DNA of 64,000 nt, taken from assembly GCA_003389215.1 (NCBI GenBank), contig QQVP01000119.1, positions 248,001-312,000 of the forward strand, written 5' to 3'. The notes under the pieces were generated by a model, which was given only the letters and a program-made list of their open reading frames with translations, was not told where the DNA came from and made no database searches. The position numbers and the translations under genes are program-made. Shown piece by piece: positions 49,427-64,000 of the stretch. Position 1 is the stretch's first letter. Each line of letters starts with the position of its first letter. This DNA is from Planctomycetota bacterium. GTDB lineage: Bacteria > Planctomycetota > Planctomycetia > Pirellulales > UBA7805.

Positions 49427-49472
49427 ACGGGACAGGTCTAATTTATCGCTAAATTAGACCTGTCCCGTTTAA
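49423..49472. repeat. RAYT-flanking palindrome, left copy (23-bp arms, 4-nt loop)
   Basis: Arms 49423-49445 and 49450-49472 are perfect complements around the loop TCGC. It contains the stop codons of both the 47546-49426 gene and the RAYT gene, so it may also serve as a bidirectional terminator. Confidence 0.9.
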
Positions 49473-50140
49473 TGAAGGCGTGGTCGGCCTCGGCGACGCA
49501 AGGTGGATTCCAGGCCGAGTCGTTGTGCTGTCTTCTTGGTCCACGCTTCACTGCCATAAGGTTGGCCGCGGGCGAGACAATTTCGCAGGGCCTGTAACTC
49601 TGCCTCGGTCTGCGGTTTGTTCACATAATCAAGCCAGTTTCTTGGTTTCGGCACGGGCCAGTCGCCGAGTATCTTGCGCTGCGAGGTCGTCCCGTGTATG
49701 CGACGCCACAGGCTTGACCATCTCCACTCTTCGGACTTTGAGACCAGATTAGCGCGCAACGCGTTACGTTCGACGTAGCGTACCGCTTGATAGAAATACT
49801 CGTCTGTCTCGATCGGAAACGATTTGTACCGGCCCTGATAGACGTGGCCCATGCCAACTCGTTGACGATGTTCTTGCCAGTTTCGGACGTGCGTCACACT
49901 GAGTTTCTGCATGAACGCGGCCATGTCGCCATCGTTCTCGGGCCACAGCACGAAATGCCAGTGATTTGGCATGATCAAGTATGCGCATATGCGAATCGGG
50001 CAGCTCTCCAGGGTCTTCTCCATAATCTCTTCGAAAGCCTGGTAGTCACGATCCTTGCGAAATAGGCGCATTTGACCGACGCCACGATTCAGTACGTGGA
50101 ATAGCATTCCGCCGGGCGCAATTCGGGCAGTGCGGGGCAT
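49469..50140 (-). CDS. REP-associated tyrosine transposase (RAYT, Y1_Tnp)
   Basis: The 223-residue product is a Y1-type HUH nuclease. Its start PRTARIAPGGMLFHVLNRGV is typical; the HUH motif is NHWHFVLWP (about residues 57-65), the next block is KLSVTHVRNWQ, and the catalytic tyrosine is in the region ESDEYFYQAVRYVERNALRA (TDEYFYQAVRYVERNA). KRVGMGHVYQGRYKSF-like sequence (VGMGHVYQGRYKSFP) is also characteristic. It lies between two copies of a 22-23-bp-armed palindrome that it probably recognises. The Arg-rich C-terminus (RRRGRPRLH) fits DNA binding. Length is normal, so it may be active. It differs from IS200/IS605 by lacking a TnpB partner. Confidence 0.92.
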   Translation of the reverse strand: MPRTARIAPGGMLFHVLNRGVGQMRLFRKDRDYQAFEEIMEKTLESCPIRICAYLIMPNHWHFVLWPENDGDMAAFMQKLSVTHVRNWQEHRQRVGMGHVYQGRYKSFPIETDEYFYQAVRYVERNALRANLVSKSEEWRWSSLWRRIHGTTSQRKILGDWPVPKPRNWLDYVNKPQTEAELQALRNCLARGQPYGSEAWTKKTAQRLGLESTLRRRGRPRLH

Positions 50141-54627: not shown

Positions 54628-55035
54628 TCAGGTCGGCTCGCTGGCCGAGGCGTCGACGTCGTCGCTCGGACTCGCCGCCTCGGAATTTTCGTCCTCGGGC
54701 AGCACTTCTTTCAAGATGCGGGCGACCTCGATGGAGTGTTTGACCCCCTGATCGAGCTCGAACCGCAGCCGCGGCGTGTAGCGGGTGTCGATCCGCTTGG
54801 CGATCTTGGATTGCAGATAGCCGGCGGCACTTTGTAAACCGTGCAGACTCAACTTCTGCGTCGCTTCGTCACCCATCACCGAGACGCGGACCTTGGCGGT
54901 TCGCATGTCCTTGGCCACTTCGACGTAGGTGACCGTGACGTTTTGGATACGGGGGTCCTGCAGCTCCATCAAGATCGCCGTGCTGACGACCTCGCGGATG
55001 GCTTCGGCGGCTTTGAGAACGCGTCGACTCGACAT
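54628..55035 (-). CDS. rbfA: Ribosome-binding factor A
   Basis: The 135-residue protein binds the 30S subunit and helps 16S rRNA 5'-end maturation. It has SRRVLKAAEAIREVVSTAIL, DPRIQNVTVTYVEVAKDMRT and ATQKLSLHGLQSAAGYLQSK, then KRIDTRYTPRLRFELDQGVK. The acidic C-terminal tail (DDVDASASEPT) extends the family core. ATG at 55035 was taken; the longer frame adds 14 atypical residues. It follows infB by 78 bp in the canonical nusA-infB-rbfA order. Identity is secure. Confidence 0.93.
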   Translation of the reverse strand: MSSRRVLKAAEAIREVVSTAILMELQDPRIQNVTVTYVEVAKDMRTAKVRVSVMGDEATQKLSLHGLQSAAGYLQSKIAKRIDTRYTPRLRFELDQGVKHSIEVARILKEVLPEDENSEAASPSDDVDASASEPT

Positions 55036-55113
55036 CGGGAATCTCGCGATCGAGGGTTGCCCGCGGGCGAAAACCAATGGTTCCGGTGACGATCTTGCCG
55101 GTGCGGCCGCGGC

Positions 55114-57750
55114 CTAATCGGCGGCGGGGACCATCGCGCTATCGAGCGTCCGCGCGATCTCCTCGATCTTGTAAACTTCCAGAATGTCGCCTTCCTTGAC
55201 GTCGTTGAACCCCCCGAGCTTGATGCCGCACTCGAGTCCCTCGCGGACCTCTTTCACGTCGTCCTTGATCCGCTTGAGCACCTCCAGCGGATAGTCGCCG
55301 ATGATCGTCTGCTCGCGCACCACCCGCACTCGGGCGCCGCGCTGCACGATTCCGCTGAGCACGCGACAGCCGGCCACCGTACCGACGCGACTGATTTTGA
55401 ACGTCTGCTGCACCAGGGCCCGACCCAATTCCGCCTCGCGCTCTTCCGGCTTAAGCATACCCTCGAGGGCTTTCTTCAAGTCGTCGGTAAGGTTGTAGAT
55501 GATGTCGTAGCGGCGAATCTGAATGCCGCGGGCATCGGCCAGGGCCCGGGCTCCTTCGTCCGGAACGACGTTGAAGCCGCAGATAATCGCATCGGAAGCA
55601 TCGGCCAGGTAGACGTCCGCCTCGGTGATGCCGCCGACCGAGGCCTGCAGGATCTTGAACTTCACCTCGGGATGGACGAGCTTCTCCAGCTCCTGTTGAA
55701 TCGCTTCGATCGAGCCGCGGACGTCCGCCCGCAAGATCAGGTTCAACGTCTGCGGTTCGTCCTGGCCGAGTCGATCGAACAAGCCTTCCAAGGTGACGTG
55801 GACCGGCGTGCCGAGCGTGGAGGTCCGCTCCAGATGATCGCGCTGCTCGGCGATGCGACGTGCTTCGGCGATGTCTTCGAGAACATAGAAGCGTTCGCCG
55901 GCCGCCGGGGCGACGTCGAGACCGGTGATGTCGACCGGTGTCGAAGGCCCTGCTTCCTGGAGTTGGTGCTTGGTGTGCAGGGTGTTGTACATCGTCTTGA
56001 TGCGGCCGTAGGCGCTGCCGCAGACGATGCAGTCGCCGATCTTCAGCGTGCCGTTCTGGACGATGAACTTGGAGACGACGCCGCGACCTTCGTGCAGCTG
56101 CGCCTCGAGGCAGGTTCCCAACGCCGCCCGCGAGGGATTTGCCTGGTACTGCTTGTCTTCGGCGATGAAGAGCAGCATTTCCAGCAGCTCGTCGATGCCG
56201 TCGCCGGTGATGGCGCTGGTGCGAATGACTTCGACGTCGCCGCCCCAGGCGGTCGGCAGCAGCTCGTTGGCCGCCAGCTCCTGCATGATGCGATTCTCGT
56301 CGACGCCCGGCAGATCGATCTTGTTCAGCGCCACGACGATCGGCACCTCGGCCGCCCGGGCGTGGCTGATGGCTTCTTCGGTCTGCGGCATGACCCCGTC
56401 GTCGGCCGCCACGACGAGTACGGCGATGTCGGTCACGTTCGCCCCGCGAGCTCGCATTTCGGTGAAGGCCTCGTGGCCCGGCGTGTCGACGAAGGCGATC
56501 TGCCGATCGTCCTTGGTCACCTCGTAGGCGCGAATATGCTGGGTGATGCCGCCGCTCTCGCCGCTGACCACGTCGATGCCGATGATGCGATCCAGCAGCG
56601 ACGTCTTGCCGTGGTCGACGTGGCCCAGGAAGGTCACGACCGGCGGCCGCAACGTCAGCGAGGCCGGGTCGTCCTCTTGCTCGGCCACGCGGCTGAGCAA
56701 TTCATCTTCCAGCGTGACCGGCTGCTTGAACTCGACATCGGCCCCCAGTTCCAGGGCCAACAGCTCGGCGGTTTCCGGTTCAATCTGCGAATTGATCGTG
56801 ACCATCTGCTCCATCTGCATCAGCTGGCGCTGAATGTCGCGGGCCGAAACCCCGATCGCCTCAGAGAAACTCCGCACGGTGCAGGGAAGCTCGACCGTGA
56901 CTTTGCCCTTCCGCGGGGCGGCCGTGTTCACGCCCGTGTGGCGAATGCGACGTGTGCCGAGCCGCCGTCGTGGTCGGTCATCGTCGTCGCCGCGGCTCTT
57001 CGTGGCGACCCGTTTGCGCTGGATCTGGCGGGCTTCGCGACCACCCAGCAGGGCGCGGTCGTCGTCTTGCAGCGAGGCGGGCGCCTCTTTGCCCTTGCGG
57101 CGGCCGCCGCGCGGGTCTTTTCCAGGAGCGGCCGGGGCTGCGGGGCCGGATGGTGCCTTGCCGCTGGGCGGGGCCGGCTCATCACCTTCGCTACGGCGGC
57201 GTTCGTGTTTCTTCAGATGCTCCGAAAGGGGAGTCGCGCCCGAGCGACTGGCCCGCATCGCCTCGACCGGCAACTTCATGTCGGGCTTCTGCGCGCCGCT
57301 GATTTCCTCCGGCGTCGGATCCGCCGGGGTGGGTGCCTCGGGCATCGGCGCCAGCTTGATGGCCGGCGGCGGCACCGGTTTAGGCGTCTTGGGCGTCTCG
57401 GGCTTTTCCGGCTTGTCCGCATCGGCCGGGGTGGCCGGCTTGAGGACACGCGGACGCCCTTGCGTTTCGGTGCCAGCGGGGGCGACGTAATCTTCGCGTC
57501 GGATGGCGCCGCCGGAGCCGCCTTGCGCGGCGATTTGCTGGGCGGTCGAGCCGCTCGCGTCGGCCGGAGCGGCGGGCTTGGCTGCTTTGCCGCGCCCGCT
57601 GATGTAGTCGCGTACCTTGTCCGCCTCGTCGTCGGTCAGACTTGCCAGCGCAGAACCCTTGCCTGTAACACCGGCTTTCGTACAGATGTCCGAAAGTTCG
57701 CCGCTGTCAAGTTTGAGTTCCTTTGCGAGTTCGTAGATGCGAACGGGCAA
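55114..57750 (-). CDS. infB: Translation initiation factor IF-2
   Basis: The 878-residue GTPase places initiator tRNA on the ribosome. The N-terminal IF2_N domain (RIYELAKELKLDSGELSDIC) is followed by a long Pro/Ala/Lys-rich region, then the G domain from about residue 370 (LGHVDHGKTSLLD, DTPGHEAF, NKIDLPG) and domains II-IV (ALVQQTFKISRVGTVAGCRV near the end). It starts with TTG at 57750, supported by AAGGA 8 nt upstream. The order nusA-infB-rbfA is kept. The N-terminal linker is longer than in E. coli in Pro/Ala content. Identity is secure. Confidence 0.96.
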   Translation of the reverse strand: MPVRIYELAKELKLDSGELSDICTKAGVTGKGSALASLTDDEADKVRDYISGRGKAAKPAAPADASGSTAQQIAAQGGSGGAIRREDYVAPAGTETQGRPRVLKPATPADADKPEKPETPKTPKPVPPPAIKLAPMPEAPTPADPTPEEISGAQKPDMKLPVEAMRASRSGATPLSEHLKKHERRRSEGDEPAPPSGKAPSGPAAPAAPGKDPRGGRRKGKEAPASLQDDDRALLGGREARQIQRKRVATKSRGDDDDRPRRRLGTRRIRHTGVNTAAPRKGKVTVELPCTVRSFSEAIGVSARDIQRQLMQMEQMVTINSQIEPETAELLALELGADVEFKQPVTLEDELLSRVAEQEDDPASLTLRPPVVTFLGHVDHGKTSLLDRIIGIDVVSGESGGITQHIRAYEVTKDDRQIAFVDTPGHEAFTEMRARGANVTDIAVLVVAADDGVMPQTEEAISHARAAEVPIVVALNKIDLPGVDENRIMQELAANELLPTAWGGDVEVIRTSAITGDGIDELLEMLLFIAEDKQYQANPSRAALGTCLEAQLHEGRGVVSKFIVQNGTLKIGDCIVCGSAYGRIKTMYNTLHTKHQLQEAGPSTPVDITGLDVAPAAGERFYVLEDIAEARRIAEQRDHLERTSTLGTPVHVTLEGLFDRLGQDEPQTLNLILRADVRGSIEAIQQELEKLVHPEVKFKILQASVGGITEADVYLADASDAIICGFNVVPDEGARALADARGIQIRRYDIIYNLTDDLKKALEGMLKPEEREAELGRALVQQTFKISRVGTVAGCRVLSGIVQRGARVRVVREQTIIGDYPLEVLKRIKDDVKEVREGLECGIKLGGFNDVKEGDILEVYKIEEIARTLDSAMVPAAD

Positions 57751-57853: not shown

Positions 57854-59278
57854 CTAGTTTGTCTTGGTTTCCTCCGACACGGCTTCCTCCGCGGCGAGGG
57901 GCGTGCTCGCCTCGCCACCGGTGGCCTCGGACGTTTCGTCCGCGGCCGGCGCCTCATCGCCACTCGTTTCCGCAGCTGCGGTCTCGGCCGCTGCCGCTTC
58001 CTCACCACTCGACTCGGCCGACTCGCCAGCTGCCGCGCGGGCAGCCGCTTCGGCCGCTTCGGCGGCGGCGGTGGCCGCTTCGAGTCGCTCCTGTTCCTTC
58101 TGGCGTCGTCGCGCTTCGGCCGCCAATTGCTCGGCTTCTTCGGCACGAACTTCCGCCTGCTCCACGATCTTGTTGACCGCCTCTTCGCTCAGCGAGCCCA
58201 TCTCCATCAGGGCGTCGGGCTCGATGACCGAGAGGTCGTCGTACGACATGAAGCCTTGTTCCACCAATTTTACGGCCAGTTCCTCCTCGAGTCCGTCCAA
58301 CTCGCTGAAGCCGGCAACGGCCCGATCGATCTGCTCGCCGAGCTCCTCGGGCGTCATGATTTCGATATCCCAGCCCGACAGCTTACTGGCCAGGCGGACG
58401 TTTTGACCGCGGCGACCGATGGCCAGCGAGAGCTGGTCTTCGCGAACCAGCACGATCGCCCGACCGAGCATCTGGCAGAGGATGACGTCGTCCACCTCGG
58501 AAGGCTGCAGGGCGTTGGGAATCAGCACCTGTAGGTCTTCGTCCCAGCGGACGATGTCGATTCGCTCGCCGGCCAATTCGTCGACGATGTTCTTGATGCG
58601 ATTGCCCCGCACCCCGACGCAGGCACCGACACAATCGACGCGCTGATCGAAGCTGCTCACGGCGACCTTGCTGCGGTAGCCCGGCTCGCGAGCCATGGCG
58701 CGGATGACGATCACGCCCTCGGCGATTTCGGGAATTTCTTGTTCGAACAGCCGCTGTACCAGGTGCGGTCGAATTCGGCTGAGAATGATTTTGACGCGGC
58801 TGCCCTGTTTGCGGACCTCGAACACGGTGGCCCGCACCCGCTCGTTGGCATGATGCGTTTCGCCGGGAATCTGTTCGCTGCGGGGCAGGATCGACTCGTG
58901 CCCGCTGGGCAACTGCACCGTGGCGGCGCCGCCTTCGTAGCGCTGCACGACACCGGTCACCATCTGGCCGATCAGCTCGGTGTACTCGTCGTAGAGCGCG
59001 TCCCGCTCCGCCTCGCGGATCTTCTGAATGATGACCTGCTTGGCCGTTTGGGCCCCGATGCGGCCGATCTGGTCTTCGTGCAACGGTTGTTCGTTGTGCG
59101 TCCCGCCGATCTCGCCCGACTCACGATCGATCGTCACCACGACATCCTCTTCCTCGCCAAAGTGCTTCTTGGCACCGGTGATGAGTGCCTGCTCGATGGC
59201 GGTGAAGACGATCTCTTTGTCGATGTTCTTATCGCGGTGAATCGCGTCGACGATCCGCAGTACTTCCGTAGAGTTCAT
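57854..59278 (-). CDS. nusA: Transcription termination/antitermination protein NusA
   Basis: The 474-residue protein modulates pausing and antitermination by RNA polymerase. It has the NusA N-domain ([20 protein letters not shown]), an S1 domain ([20 protein letters not shown]), two KH domains ([40 protein letters not shown]), and a helix-hairpin segment ([15 protein letters not shown]). From about residue 385 the C-terminus is an Ala/Glu/Ser-rich tail of about 90 residues. It is the first gene of the nusA-infB-rbfA operon; rimP, often upstream, is not visible. TTGACA-18-TATCCT and a leader hairpin lie upstream. Identity is secure. Confidence 0.95.
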
Positions 59279-59344
59279 AGACCATCCCCGGCCTCGACCG
59301 GCGCATCGACACAACGCGACCGACGGGGCACGTCTGGCACCGCG

Positions 59345-59546: not shown

Positions 59547-60866
59547 CTACTCGGCCGCTCGAACCGCGAGCACGCTGGCCTGCCCCTGCGGCGTGACGTT
59601 GATATTCACAAAGCTCTTGCCGGCGGCCGCTTCGTCATGCCGCACCACGTTGACGTCGCACGCCTCGTCGGGCGTCTCGTAGTTCAGCACGCGGAACAGC
59701 CGGCCTTGCTGCTGGGCGAGCAGCGAAGCGGCCAGCTCGATCATCCCGCCACCGGCCCCCAGGTTGCCCAGGTGACTCTTGGCCGCCACCACCGGAGGCT
59801 GCCCTCCGCGGTCTCCAAAGACGGTCGCGATCGCGGCGGCCTCGTCGGCGTCGCAGGCCCGCGTCGCCAGACCATGAGCGTGCACGTGCCCCACTTCGTT
59901 CCGCGCTAGCGATGCCTGGCGGAGGGCCGCTGCCAGGGCGTTGGCAATCGCCCGCCGACGGTCGGCGATCGAGGGGGCCCGCGTTACGGAGGACGATCCG
60001 ACGCCCACCACTTCCCCGTAGATTCTCGCACCGCGGGCGCGAGCCGCTTCCAGTTCTTCCAGAATCACGGCCCCCGAACCCTCGCCCAGCACCATGCCGG
60101 TGCGGTCGCGATCGAAGGGCCGCGAGGCCTCGGCGGGGGCCACGTGGTTGCCGGCCACCTCCTCGTGCTGCAGGGCGTGCAGCATGTTCATCGGATGTAG
60201 CCGCGTACCGGTCGCGCCGGCCACCATCACGTCGGCCGTGCCGCGGCCGATGATCTGGGCCGCTTCGCCCACCGCCAGGTTCGAGGCTGCTTCGCGCTGG
60301 GTGAGCGAGTTGCTCGGGCCGCGCAGGTCGTTGTAAATCGCCACGTGACTGGCCGGCATGTTCGGCAAGTAGAACAACAGCCACAGGGGACTTACCCGGG
60401 GCAAGCCCTGGGATCCCCACTGCTCATAGGCGAAGTCGCCCTTGTCGTCGACACACTGCTTCGCCCCGTCGACGAAGTCCTCGGGCATGGTGAGCATATA
60501 GTCGGAACCGAACACGCAGCCGGTCCGCTCGGGGTCGTAGTCGCCCATCGCCAGGCCGGCGTCTTGCAGCGCTCGTTGCGAGGCGGCCACGCCCATCATC
60601 GTTTCGCGGCACATCAGCTTGGTGCCTTTGCGGATCAGCTTTTTCTGATCCTTGGCCAGCTCGCCAAACTCGTCGATATGCCCGGTGAACTCGGCGGCCG
60701 GGGCGCCAAAGCGGGTTTCGCCGACGAAGGCTGCCAGCGCTTCGAGCGGACGCACGCCGCTGTGGCCGGCAGAGAGATTGTCCCACAGCGTGGCCGACGA
60801 TTGGCCGAGCGGGCTGACGACGCCGATGCCGGTGATTGCCACGCGGCGCGGTTGGGTGGGGCGCAT
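59547..60866 (-). CDS. Beta-ketoacyl synthase homologue lacking active-site Cys and one His
   Basis: The 439-residue product has the FabF/KAS fold: VAITGIGVVSPLGQSSATLW at the start, NDLRGPSNSLTQREAASNLA at the nucleophile elbow, EVGHVHAHGLATRACDADEA at the first catalytic His and AAKSHLGNLGAGGGMIELAA at the second. Aligned by eye with FabF (GPS-I-S-I-A-T-A-C), the nucleophilic cysteine is Glu192, and the second His (KSMTGH) is Asn368; His331 remains. Chain-length-factor subunits of type II PKS also lose the Cys. No acyl carrier or partner KAS is adjacent, so it is unlikely to condense by itself. Possibly a regulatory or partner subunit. Confidence 0.86.
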   Translation of the reverse strand: MRPTQPRRVAITGIGVVSPLGQSSATLWDNLSAGHSGVRPLEALAAFVGETRFGAPAAEFTGHIDEFGELAKDQKKLIRKGTKLMCRETMMGVAASQRALQDAGLAMGDYDPERTGCVFGSDYMLTMPEDFVDGAKQCVDDKGDFAYEQWGSQGLPRVSPLWLLFYLPNMPASHVAIYNDLRGPSNSLTQREAASNLAVGEAAQIIGRGTADVMVAGATGTRLHPMNMLHALQHEEVAGNHVAPAEASRPFDRDRTGMVLGEGSGAVILEELEAARARGARIYGEVVGVGSSSVTRAPSIADRRRAIANALAAALRQASLARNEVGHVHAHGLATRACDADEAAAIATVFGDRGGQPPVVAAKSHLGNLGAGGGMIELAASLLAQQQGRLFRVLNYETPDEACDVNVVRHDEAAAGKSFVNINVTPQGQASVLAVRAAE

Positions 60867-61273: not shown

Positions 61274-62596
61274 TCAATAGCGGCCGTGGTACTTCGTCGC
61301 CGGGGCGCTGGCCGTGCCGGCCGGGGTCACGTTGCGGACCGCGGCCCCCTTGTTCTCGATGAAGATCAGCGTGTCGGCCCGGGGCGGCGCCGGACTGGTC
61401 AGTGGCAGCGAGAGCGGGCTCTTCATTTGCGGCACGGGGCTGGCGACCATGCCCAGCGAGACGAGCAACACCTTGTCCGAAGGCCAGCGGAACCGCTCCT
61501 GCAGCCGGCAACTACTCAGCTGCGGGACTTCCGTGTTCACCCATTGCTGGGCCGTGCCGGGGGCCTGCAGCTGGACCGCAACCATCTTCTCGACCTGGTC
61601 GTTGTGAAACTTCAGCACCGCGTCGATCGTCGAGCCGTCGAGCGAGAGCAGGGGGCTCAGCTCCAGCGTGTAGCCTTCGGTCAGCTGGGCCACGTCGGGC
61701 GTGTAGCCAGCCAGGCCGTTGGCACTGGCCAACACCCCGCGGACATATTGCCGTGAGCGGGTGCCGTTGAGAATCGTCGTTTGTCCGTTGTTCACCAGCA
61801 GGTGTGGCGAACTGTGCTGCTGATAATCGCTGCGGCGGCCCAACTCGGTGAGCAGCAGCGTGGCGTCCTCCTTGGCCAGCAGCCAGGCCTGAATGCCCTG
61901 CGTTTGCGTCGGCACCGGCCGCAGCATCTGCGAAGCGCGGGCTCGCCAGTTGGGATGCCCGACCGTGGCCACGCGGACGGTCATGGCCTGGGTTTCCGCC
62001 TCGGTGTTGACGAAGCGGTCAACAATTTCGCCGACAATCGCCTGCTTTTCGGGTGTGTGATAGACCCGCAGTGTGCCTCGCGTGGCGTTCAACACGGCGA
62101 CCTCTTCACCGTGCCAGGCTTCGTAGCCGGTCTCGCGGAGAATCCAGTCGACGATCGCCTGTTCGGGCTGGTTCGTCGAGGTCACCCGCAGCGTGTAGGG
62201 CGAGATGTCGTACTCGCGCCACACCTGGCCTTGGTCGTTGGGCAGGGTGCCGCTGCCTTTGGTCACGCGGGCAATCGGGGGGCGTGCGGTCGGGCCGCCG
62301 GTGGCTTGAGCGGTGCGAACACCGTCGCGGGGGGCGATCGGGTCCTCGGCCGCGGCCGGCACGACCTGCGAACCGGCGTCGTCGGCGGTCACCAGCACGC
62401 TTGCGCGGCCGCTCGATTTGTCATCGTCGGCGCGAGTAGCCGAACGGCTGTCGGTGGAGTCGGTCGCACGAGCGGTCGACTTTTCGCCCGGCGGTCGCCA
62501 GCGGACCGAGCCACGAGCGCGGCTGCTGGTTTGGGCGGCGGCCGAGTCGGCCAACAGGAACACGACGAGGGCGAACGCTACGAGCCGGGCGGACAT
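61274..62596 (-). CDS. Exported protein with secretin-N-domain-like segment (440 aa)
   Basis: I do not recognise a named family. It has a signal peptide (LVAFALVVFLLADSAAAQ), a Ser/Arg/Asp-rich disordered part to about 100, then a segment like secretin N domains or STN domains (REYDISPYTLRVTSTNQPEQ, WILRETGYEAWHGEEVAVLN, LRVYHTPEKQAIVGEIVDRF). The rest, with VNNGQTTILNGTRSRQYVRG, SPLLSLDGSTIDAVLKFHND and WPSDKVLLVSLGMVASPVPQ, recalls a secretin beta-domain but without the final pore signature. A type II secretion-like envelope role is an inference only. Confidence 0.78.
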   Translation of the reverse strand: MSARLVAFALVVFLLADSAAAQTSSRARGSVRWRPPGEKSTARATDSTDSRSATRADDDKSSGRASVLVTADDAGSQVVPAAAEDPIAPRDGVRTAQATGGPTARPPIARVTKGSGTLPNDQGQVWREYDISPYTLRVTSTNQPEQAIVDWILRETGYEAWHGEEVAVLNATRGTLRVYHTPEKQAIVGEIVDRFVNTEAETQAMTVRVATVGHPNWRARASQMLRPVPTQTQGIQAWLLAKEDATLLLTELGRRSDYQQHSSPHLLVNNGQTTILNGTRSRQYVRGVLASANGLAGYTPDVAQLTEGYTLELSPLLSLDGSTIDAVLKFHNDQVEKMVAVQLQAPGTAQQWVNTEVPQLSSCRLQERFRWPSDKVLLVSLGMVASPVPQMKSPLSLPLTSPAPPRADTLIFIENKGAAVRNVTPAGTASAPATKYHGRY

Positions 62597-62882: not shown

Positions 62883-64000
62883 ATGAAGACCTCGCTCAAG
62901 TACACCGTCGTCGTCGTTCTTACCCTCACCCTCAGCATCGTCGCCAGCAGCGACTTGCTGGCCGCCAAAAAGGGCGGCAAAGGCGGCCGCAGCTTCAACA
63001 GCGGCGGAAACCGTGCTCGTAGCACCTCGATGCAACGTCGCAGCGCCCCGCAGCGTCGTAGCGCCCCGCGGATGAAGACCTCCCAGGCAGCTCGCGGCAA
63101 GAAGGCCACTTCGCACCGTGCCAACTTCGCCGGCAAGAAGGGCGGCCAAGCCCGCAACCTGAAGATGGCTCCGAAGAAGGGCGATTTCGCCCGCAATCAG
63201 CGTACGAACCAGAAGCGGAACTTCCCCACGGCCCAGCAGAAGCCGCGAATTCAGCCTCGACAGGGTGGTTTGCAGAAGCCTGGCAAGTTGCGACCGAACT
63301 TCCCTCGCCAGCCCGGCCTGCAGAAGCCCGGAAACCTGCGTCCGAACGTCCCTCGGAATCCCGGTTTGCAGAAGCCGCGCTTGCCAGGTCGTCCCGACAT
63401 CCAGCGTCCCGGTACGCGACCGAACCTGCCCGAGATGCCGAACCTGCCGGGTCGTCCGGGTGCCCGACCGACCCCGCCGATCACCAAGCCGCTGCCTCCG
63501 GTTGTGAAGCCACGTCCGCCGATCGTCAAGCCGCTGCCCCCGGTTGTGAAGCCTCGGCCGCTGCCCCCGATCGTCCGGCCGCTACCCCCGATCGTCCGGC
63601 CGCTACCCCCGATTTGTCCGCGACCCGATTGGTGCCGACCCCGTCCGCCTCGTTGCCACTGGTGGTACGACTGGTGCCCGCGGATTCGTCACTGCCAACC
63701 GCAAGACTGTGTCAGCTACTCGATCAACTACGTCGACGTCCCGGCCGAGGATGCGGTGGCGACGAAGTGGTACCTCGGCGTGTCGGGCCTGATGCTCGAC
63801 GGCAAGGGCTTTGGGATCGAGTCGGTTGAAGCGGGCTCGCCCGCCGAAGCCGCCGGTCTGGCCACCGGCATGGTGATCACGAAGGTCAACGGCGTCGAGA
63901 TCCTCGACACCGCCACGTTGGCCGAAGCGATCGCGACCTCGGTCGACGGGCTCCTCGAACTCGAGGTGATCGTCGAAGCCGGTGCCGAGCCGGTGCCCGC
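62883..64000 (+). CDS. Exported Arg/Lys- and Pro-rich protein with PDZ domain (cut by window end)
   Basis: The frame opens with ATG at 62883 after AGGAGA and remains open to the window end, at least 372 residues. It begins with a signal peptide (VVVVLTLTLSIVASSDLLAA), a basic Gly/Arg/Gln/Lys part, a repetitive part (GLQKPGKLRPNFPRQP, GLQKPGNLRPNVPRNP), a Pro-rich part (KPLPPVVKPRPPIVK, PLPPIVRPLPPIVRPLPPI), a short Cys/Trp segment (CPRPDWCRPRPPRCHWWYDW) and a PDZ domain from about residue 293 (WYLGVSGLMLDGKGFGIESV, AGSPAEAAGLATGMVITKVN). Cysteine pairs may form disulfides. The rest is beyond the window. Function unknown; surface or periplasmic scaffold is likely. Confidence 0.86.
   Translation, partial: MKTSLKYTVVVVLTLTLSIVASSDLLAAKKGGKGGRSFNSGGNRARSTSMQRRSAPQRRSAPRMKTSQAARGKKATSHRANFAGKKGGQARNLKMAPKKGDFARNQRTNQKRNFPTAQQKPRIQPRQGGLQKPGKLRPNFPRQPGLQKPGNLRPNVPRNPGLQKPRLPGRPDIQRPGTRPNLPEMPNLPGRPGARPTPPITKPLPPVVKPRPPIVKPLPPVVKPRPLPPIVRPLPPIVRPLPPICPRPDWCRPRPPRCHWWYDWCPRIRHCQPQDCVSYSINYVDVPAEDAVATKWYLGVSGLMLDGKGFGIESVEAGSPAEAAGLATGMVITKVNGVEILDTATLAEAIATSVDGLLELEVIVEAGAEPVP

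Follow-up and report, generated by a model that had tools for sequence, protein, structure and literature searches.

What can a ketosynthase do once its catalytic cysteine is gone, and does it do so alone or with a partner? The question is raised by a gene at 59547..60866 (-) of the window (the whole stretch of planctomycete DNA that was analysed, 64,000 nucleotides), which codes for a Cys-less ketosynthase homologue of 439 residues, here called KS^E and assigned to clade A, as recognised from its open reading frame, its Pfam domains and its orthologues. PF00109 and PF02801 span nearly the whole protein. Alignment to Escherichia coli FabF bears out the two substitutions reported in the first-pass annotation: Glu192 (codon GAA, 60291..60293 (-)) occupies the position of the nucleophilic Cys163, and Asn368 (codon AAC, 59763..59765 (-)) that of the catalytic His340. 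His331 (59874..59876 (-)), equivalent to FabF His303, and Lys363 (59778..59780 (-)), equivalent to Lys335 and a Lys in 147/157 Cys-less ketosynthases, have been retained. In this alignment the Cys-His-His (C-H-H) triad of an active KAS II is absent from KS^E and E192/H331/N368 is found instead; the GFGG/Phe400 gating loop has become PQGQA, and the pantetheine-binding threonines are lost (T270 to S299, T305 to L333). The NCBIfam fabF equivalog cut-off of 493.75 is not reached by KS^E, which scores 264.5 bits, about half. An AF2 monomer model (pLDDT 81.6, pTM 0.85) confirmed the ketosynthase fold. Its pLDDT falls below 50 at residues 158-164 and 168-189, the interface/nucleophile segment, and therefore no pocket geometry is claimed. 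A Foldseek search with the model returned FabF-like ketosynthase structures, FabF at a query TM of 0.74-0.80, and the ishigamide KS-CLF structure appeared only at rank 46 among the matches. KS^E is a full-length protein of KAS II fold that lacks the catalytic Cys, the second His and the gating loop.

The loss of catalytic residues is the sole point in favour of a pseudogene, a recent mutation or an assembly error, and this explanation has already been refuted by conservation. Orthologues with 48-61% identity have been found in 54 of 58 relatives searched; the four relatives without one are assemblies only 62-83% complete, and the gene is present in all relatives of the order that are at least 85% complete. 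Glu was found at the Cys position in 30/30 orthologues fetched first, and in the final order-level alignment Glu and Asn occur in 93/93 sequences and the first His in 92/93, all of these being counts over related, hence not independent, sequences. Locus L030, outside the 93-sequence set, carries His in place of Asn, and one row was scored D-H-S in a further residue scoring of orthologues. A contig scan of genomes yielded 80 further loci, nearly all of them labelled planctomycetes. The reading frame holds no stop codons, long motifs are conserved, and three base changes separate GAA from TGC or TGT. Since Glu is fixed among the order orthologues, the substitution is an old, selected state. The question raised in the note, whether Glu is fixed, is answered in the affirmative for the order, and the view that selection keeps the scaffold has held.

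A residue pattern so strictly kept might also betray a different chemistry. For example, KS^E could be a KSQ-like malonyl-ACP decarboxylase, in which Glu192 would mimic an acylated Cys and His331 and Asn368 would assist, supplying acetyl-ACP primers. The near-invariance of E-H-N in clade A and the retention of Lys363 agree with such a role, as does the resemblance of E-H-N to Cys-His-Asn, the triad of FabH. The activity is nevertheless very improbable. Both His occur in only 6/157 Cys-less ketosynthases and neither in 19, yet an acid is kept in 153/157, so that within the family its presence does not depend on His chemistry; the position carries Glu or Asp instead of Gln; and the window genome contains two FabH-like genes, so that priming does not need KS^E. 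The same two genes rule out a missing FabH as the reason for a decarboxylase primer route. Clade A alone keeps E-H-N strictly and so might have an activity of its own.

The gene neighbourhood bears on the question of a partner. In the window genome, KS^E lies between nusA-infB-rbfA and a fabF-acpP-fabG-fabD cluster. Downstream is nusA (57854..59314 (-), from sequence reading and synteny), and beyond it come infB (55114-57750) and then rbfA (54628-55077), placed by synteny and by the RBFA Pfam match of an orthologue. Near these ribosome-maturation genes, an open reading frame at 49469-50140 (-) reads like a REP-associated (Y1) transposase. Between KS^E and the fab cluster there are a divergent PDZ-like open reading frame and a secretin-like one (61274..62596 (-)) with a signal-peptide-like start and a sub-threshold Pfam Secretin match (E=0.099). 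The latter is directly upstream of KS^E in 16/21 order loci, and the Pfam search found no tie between it and lipid synthesis. The recurrent order is fabD-fabG-(acpP)-fabF-[secretin-like]-KS^E-nusA-infB-rbfA. The statement in the first-pass annotation that no partner KAS is encoded alongside proved mistaken, because the window ends too soon: a canonical C-H-H FabF, next to acpP-fabG-fabD and on the same strand, starts just beyond base 64000, about 3.3 kb upstream of KS^E. An upstream FabF on the strand of KS^E was counted at 11/21 loci of the order and at 12/42 of a second set; several sister-family genomes have it about 0.4 kb upstream.

Other ketosynthases of the genome widen the choice. KS_C17 (contig C17; 4731-6011 (-) of locus L009) has an intact C-H-H triad and belongs to an operon of a FabZ-like dehydratase (DH1), an ACP, a second FabZ-like dehydratase (DH2) and the ketosynthase itself. 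It is present in 149/149 genomes of the class, and the search for a co-conserved KAS elsewhere in the genome, suggested by the early note, was thus answered positively. KS_C103, in turn, is a second Cys-less protein, 44% identical to KS^E, with Glu at the Cys position and Tyr at the second His. Its orthologues form clade B, in which Glu or Asp, once Ser, is found at the Cys position, and a fatty acid desaturase often adjoins their genes. Another C-H-H enzyme, KS_C4, belongs to an OleC/OleD-like cluster that also includes two desaturase-like genes. This cluster (L008 980-9884, G000 contig C4:112000-124000) reads as an OleC-like AMP-ligase, an OleD-like NAD-dependent epimerase, the C-H-H ketosynthase and two phytoene-desaturase-like oxidoreductases; its ketosynthase is 74-78% identical in several relatives, that is, strongly conserved. 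An orphan without any partner is ruled out by the neighbouring contig stretch and these other KAS genes. As for which KAS is the partner, clade A might have switched to the neighbouring FabF, acting in the manner of a chain-length factor (CLF) and tuning ordinary chain length, with KS_C17 left to clade B (the C103 protein). The upstream, same-strand position of FabF agrees with such a switch, as does the stronger conservation of clade A relative to clade B; in about half of the loci or more, however, FabF is no longer linked. Together with the residue pattern and the relatives lacking clade B described below, this makes the switch unlikely.

The other candidate emerges from lineages in which the two types of ketosynthase gene are still adjacent. 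In families f87-f91 of the class, a Glu/Asp ketosynthase is directly upstream of a KS_C17 orthologue in 14/14 loci, within an operon DH1-(KR)-ACP-DH2-KS^E-KS^C-(alpha/beta hydrolase)-(GH3). Elsewhere in the phylum, the tandem also occurs in f23, f49, f62, f67, f73, f79, f83, f94 and f97, in most of the loci read there. Outside f87-f91 the first ketosynthase has Glu in 15/19 cases and Asp, Asn, Gln or Ser in the rest. Counted over 31 tandem pairs, Cys is found in the first ketosynthase in 0/31 and C-H-H in the second in 31/31. The likening to chain-length factors was right. Relatives of KS^E elsewhere in the phylum stand at the head of a tandem whose second gene codes for an intact KAS. In the window's order, DH1-(KR)-ACP-DH2-KS_C17 is found without a Cys-less ketosynthase in the window genome and in 18/20 further loci; the remaining two are incomplete, one being without DH1 only and the other consisting of KS_C17 alone. 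In the window genome FabF is the active ketosynthase gene near KS^E, and KS_C17 is on another contig, so the partner has to be deduced from other lineages. Behind the tandem, L221 (4411-6105) and its orthologues in L220-L233 code for a GH3-family acyl-amide synthetase, distantly related to the lyso-ornithine lipid synthetase OlsH, together with an alpha/beta hydrolase, hinting at an amide-linked lipid product. Apparent fusions of the two ketosynthases in long frames of L359, L361 and L366 were rejected as GC-rich read-through upstream of ordinary starts.

The residues lost by each member of the pair complement each other. In E. coli FabF, Lys65, Arg68 and Lys69 contact AcpP, which is touched mostly by the FabF monomer to which it is not crosslinked (PMC7138838). 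In the ishigamide KS-CLF complex, the ACP touches mainly the CLF (PMC8358021). Residues were compared among 157 Cys-less ketosynthases, 53 KS^C, 27 housekeeping FabF and the 31 tandem pairs. The equivalents of FabF 65 and 68 (Lys80 and Lys83 in KS^E, 60618..60629 (-)) are basic in 157/157 Cys-less proteins, and Pro131 is likewise kept in 157/157. Trp162 of KS^E (60381..60383 (-)), at FabF position 133 within the conserved segment PLWLLKYLPNMPA of the dimer interface/acyl tunnel, is Trp in 156/157. The Cys, both His, Lys335, Asp265, Thr270, Thr305, Thr307 and Phe400 are invariant in 53/53 KS^C; in KS^E the Cys, the His pair, Phe400, Thr270, Thr305 and Thr307 are eroded. Position 65 in KS^C, on the other hand, is mostly acidic or neutral, and within the tandem pairs 31/31 first ketosynthases have both docking basics, against 0/31 second ones. 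KS_C17 of the window's order is often basic at 68, so that docking residues have been lost less thoroughly there than in the tandem pairs. If the ACP serving the active subunit docks on the dead one, the docking face of the active subunit is free to decay, and complementary degeneration is the pattern that a heterodimer predicts. Housekeeping FabF has all three docking basics and the full catalytic set in 27/27 cases, as expected for a self-sufficient homodimer, which argues against FabF as the partner. Glu108, Glu134 and Gln137 (FabF numbering) are also invariant in 53/53 KS^C, at positions that are mostly hydrophobic in FabF, which suggests that the acyl tunnel of KS_C17 may be unusually polar. 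In the active site of the ishigamide KS-CLF, a charged residue, Asp113, is reported to promote product release (PMC8358021).

Retained docking lysines in a protein that has lost catalysis, and whose gene has the housekeeping fatty acid genes on one side and nusA-infB on the other, could also describe an ACP-binding regulatory pseudoenzyme, a homodimer outside any condensing enzyme that serves, for instance, as an acyl-ACP sensor. The tandem with an active ketosynthase across the phylum and the complementary degeneration are unexpected for a stand-alone sensor, and such a role has little to recommend it.

The history of the pair has been followed in two maximum-likelihood trees of 92 and 91 rows, drawn without actinobacterial CLF sequences, in which all Cys-less ketosynthases form one clade (support 100/100 and 100/99) that arises beside FabF and KS_C17 in planctomycetes. 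KS^E of the window falls in clade A (100/99); the mutual relation of the clade B lines has weak support. KS_C17 and all second ketosynthases form another clade, with the second ketosynthase of family f33 at its base, and the deep branching of the first- and second-ketosynthase trees agrees. The sister of the Cys-less clade is the first ketosynthase of f33, which is still C-H-H. Orthologues with a normal triad had been named beforehand as the sign of a local mutation or error; none was found in the order, and the f33 protein, outside it, does keep C-H-H but shows where the change arose, not a local error. In the f33 loci L100, L101, L102 and L103, both tandem ketosynthases are C-H-H and the second is already without ACP-docking residues; the two losses were therefore not simultaneous. 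The f33 tandem is possibly the ancestral state of the pair. The simplest history is that a KAS was duplicated in tandem, that the first copy lost its Cys once f33 had split off, and that this copy later left the operon and was duplicated to give clades A and B, these last steps being placed in the window's order and the sister family. The intact pair of f33 and the intermediates with Asn, Ser or Gln offer a readable series from FabF to a CLF-like subunit.

KS^E is thus probably a KAS II-type subunit that has no catalysis of its own and plays the part of a chain-length factor (KS-beta). It would heterodimerise with the active KAS of the DH1-(KR)-ACP-DH2-KAS operon, KS_C17, and KS^E, the dead subunit, would offer the docking surface to the substrate-laden ACP that serves the active site of KS_C17. 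Segment 131-137 of one FabF subunit lines the acyl tunnel of its partner, and the corresponding PLW(L/M)LKYLPNMPA segment of KS^E may line or cap the tunnel of KS_C17 and so set chain length. The buried Glu192 may pair with Lys363, stabilising the emptied pocket. The gene would have left the ancestral operon and duplicated in the window's order and sister family, and the clade A copy would have come to lie next to fabF/acpP in the housekeeping fatty acid cluster, acting from there in trans. The gene content of the operon, with its pair of dehydratases and its ACP and, at some loci, a ketoreductase, an alpha/beta hydrolase and a GH3 acyl-amide synthetase, makes a specialised acyl chain, reduced or unsaturated, the probable product. 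Co-occurrence alone is uninformative as to the partner, KS^E and KS_C17 both being universal in the class. More telling are four relatives that are 96-99% complete (G017, G024, G034 and G041): both clade A and KS_C17 are present and no clade B match was found in them, so that clade A is the only partner available to KS_C17, which also speaks against FabF. On ancestry, docking pattern and these four relatives, all read from sequence, KS_C17 would rank ahead of FabF.

A class-wide Cys-less partner suggests that core lipid metabolism in planctomycetes includes a heterodimeric condensing enzyme, with a division of labour that would leave catalysis to one subunit and ACP docking to the other. A wider and rather doubtful proposal is that Planctomycetota evolved their own Cys-less partner for a FAS-like condensing enzyme as class-wide core lipid machinery, and that the free, trans-encoded subunit pairs with both KS_C17 and FabF, its swaps switching chain length. 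Were this true, exchange of a dead subunit would replace the chain length of specialised synthesis by that of ordinary fatty acids, or the reverse.

Cys-less paralogues have been reported in planctomycetes before. In the part of Rattray 2009 drawn on here, the Rhodopirellula baltica FabF paralogues RB3714 (Asp) and RB4527 (Glu) lack Cys163, and another substrate or function was suggested for them (PMC2649909). They carry the same type of substitution as KS^E and are very likely members of clades A/B, matched by substitution rather than by sequence comparison. Pairing, docking pattern and a phylum-wide tandem are not described in that part of the paper (PMC2649909). A 2023 catalogue lists Planctomycetes among the phyla with KS/CLF-like pairs and scores many non-actinobacterial pairs as FAS-FAS (PMC10132072). 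Among the open-licence papers searched, nothing direct was found on a CLF with Glu or a dead ketosynthase in fatty acid synthesis, nor any account of KS^E and KS_C17 as a pair, of the docking pattern or of the encoding in trans. Compared with the FabF/KAS II homodimer, KS^E shares the fold, about 30-32% identity to FabF structures, Lys335 and the docking Lys65/Arg68, but it has lost Cys163, His340 (now Asn), the Phe400 loop (now PQGQA), Thr270 and Thr305. KSQ decarboxylase domains are also ketosynthase folds with the Cys replaced; they have Gln at that position and two His, whereas KS^E has Glu and one His. There is also a likeness to the KS-CLF of type II PKS, highly reducing types among them (ishigamide Iga11-Iga12, aryl polyene ApeO-ApeC), in which, as in KS^E, a ketosynthase fold is found without Cys: the relatives of KS^E stand in tandem with an active ketosynthase alongside ACP and dehydratases, and the loss of the nucleophilic Cys is fixed in a clade. 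Gln is usual at the Cys position of actinobacterial CLFs, in contrast to the Glu/Asp of KS^E. Sequence and fold searches alike place KS^E nearest to FabF, and in the window's lineage it is trans-encoded, close to the housekeeping fatty acid genes. Finally, chain-length factors are known chiefly from natural-product clusters, and KS^E belongs not to an occasional cluster of that kind but to every member of its class.
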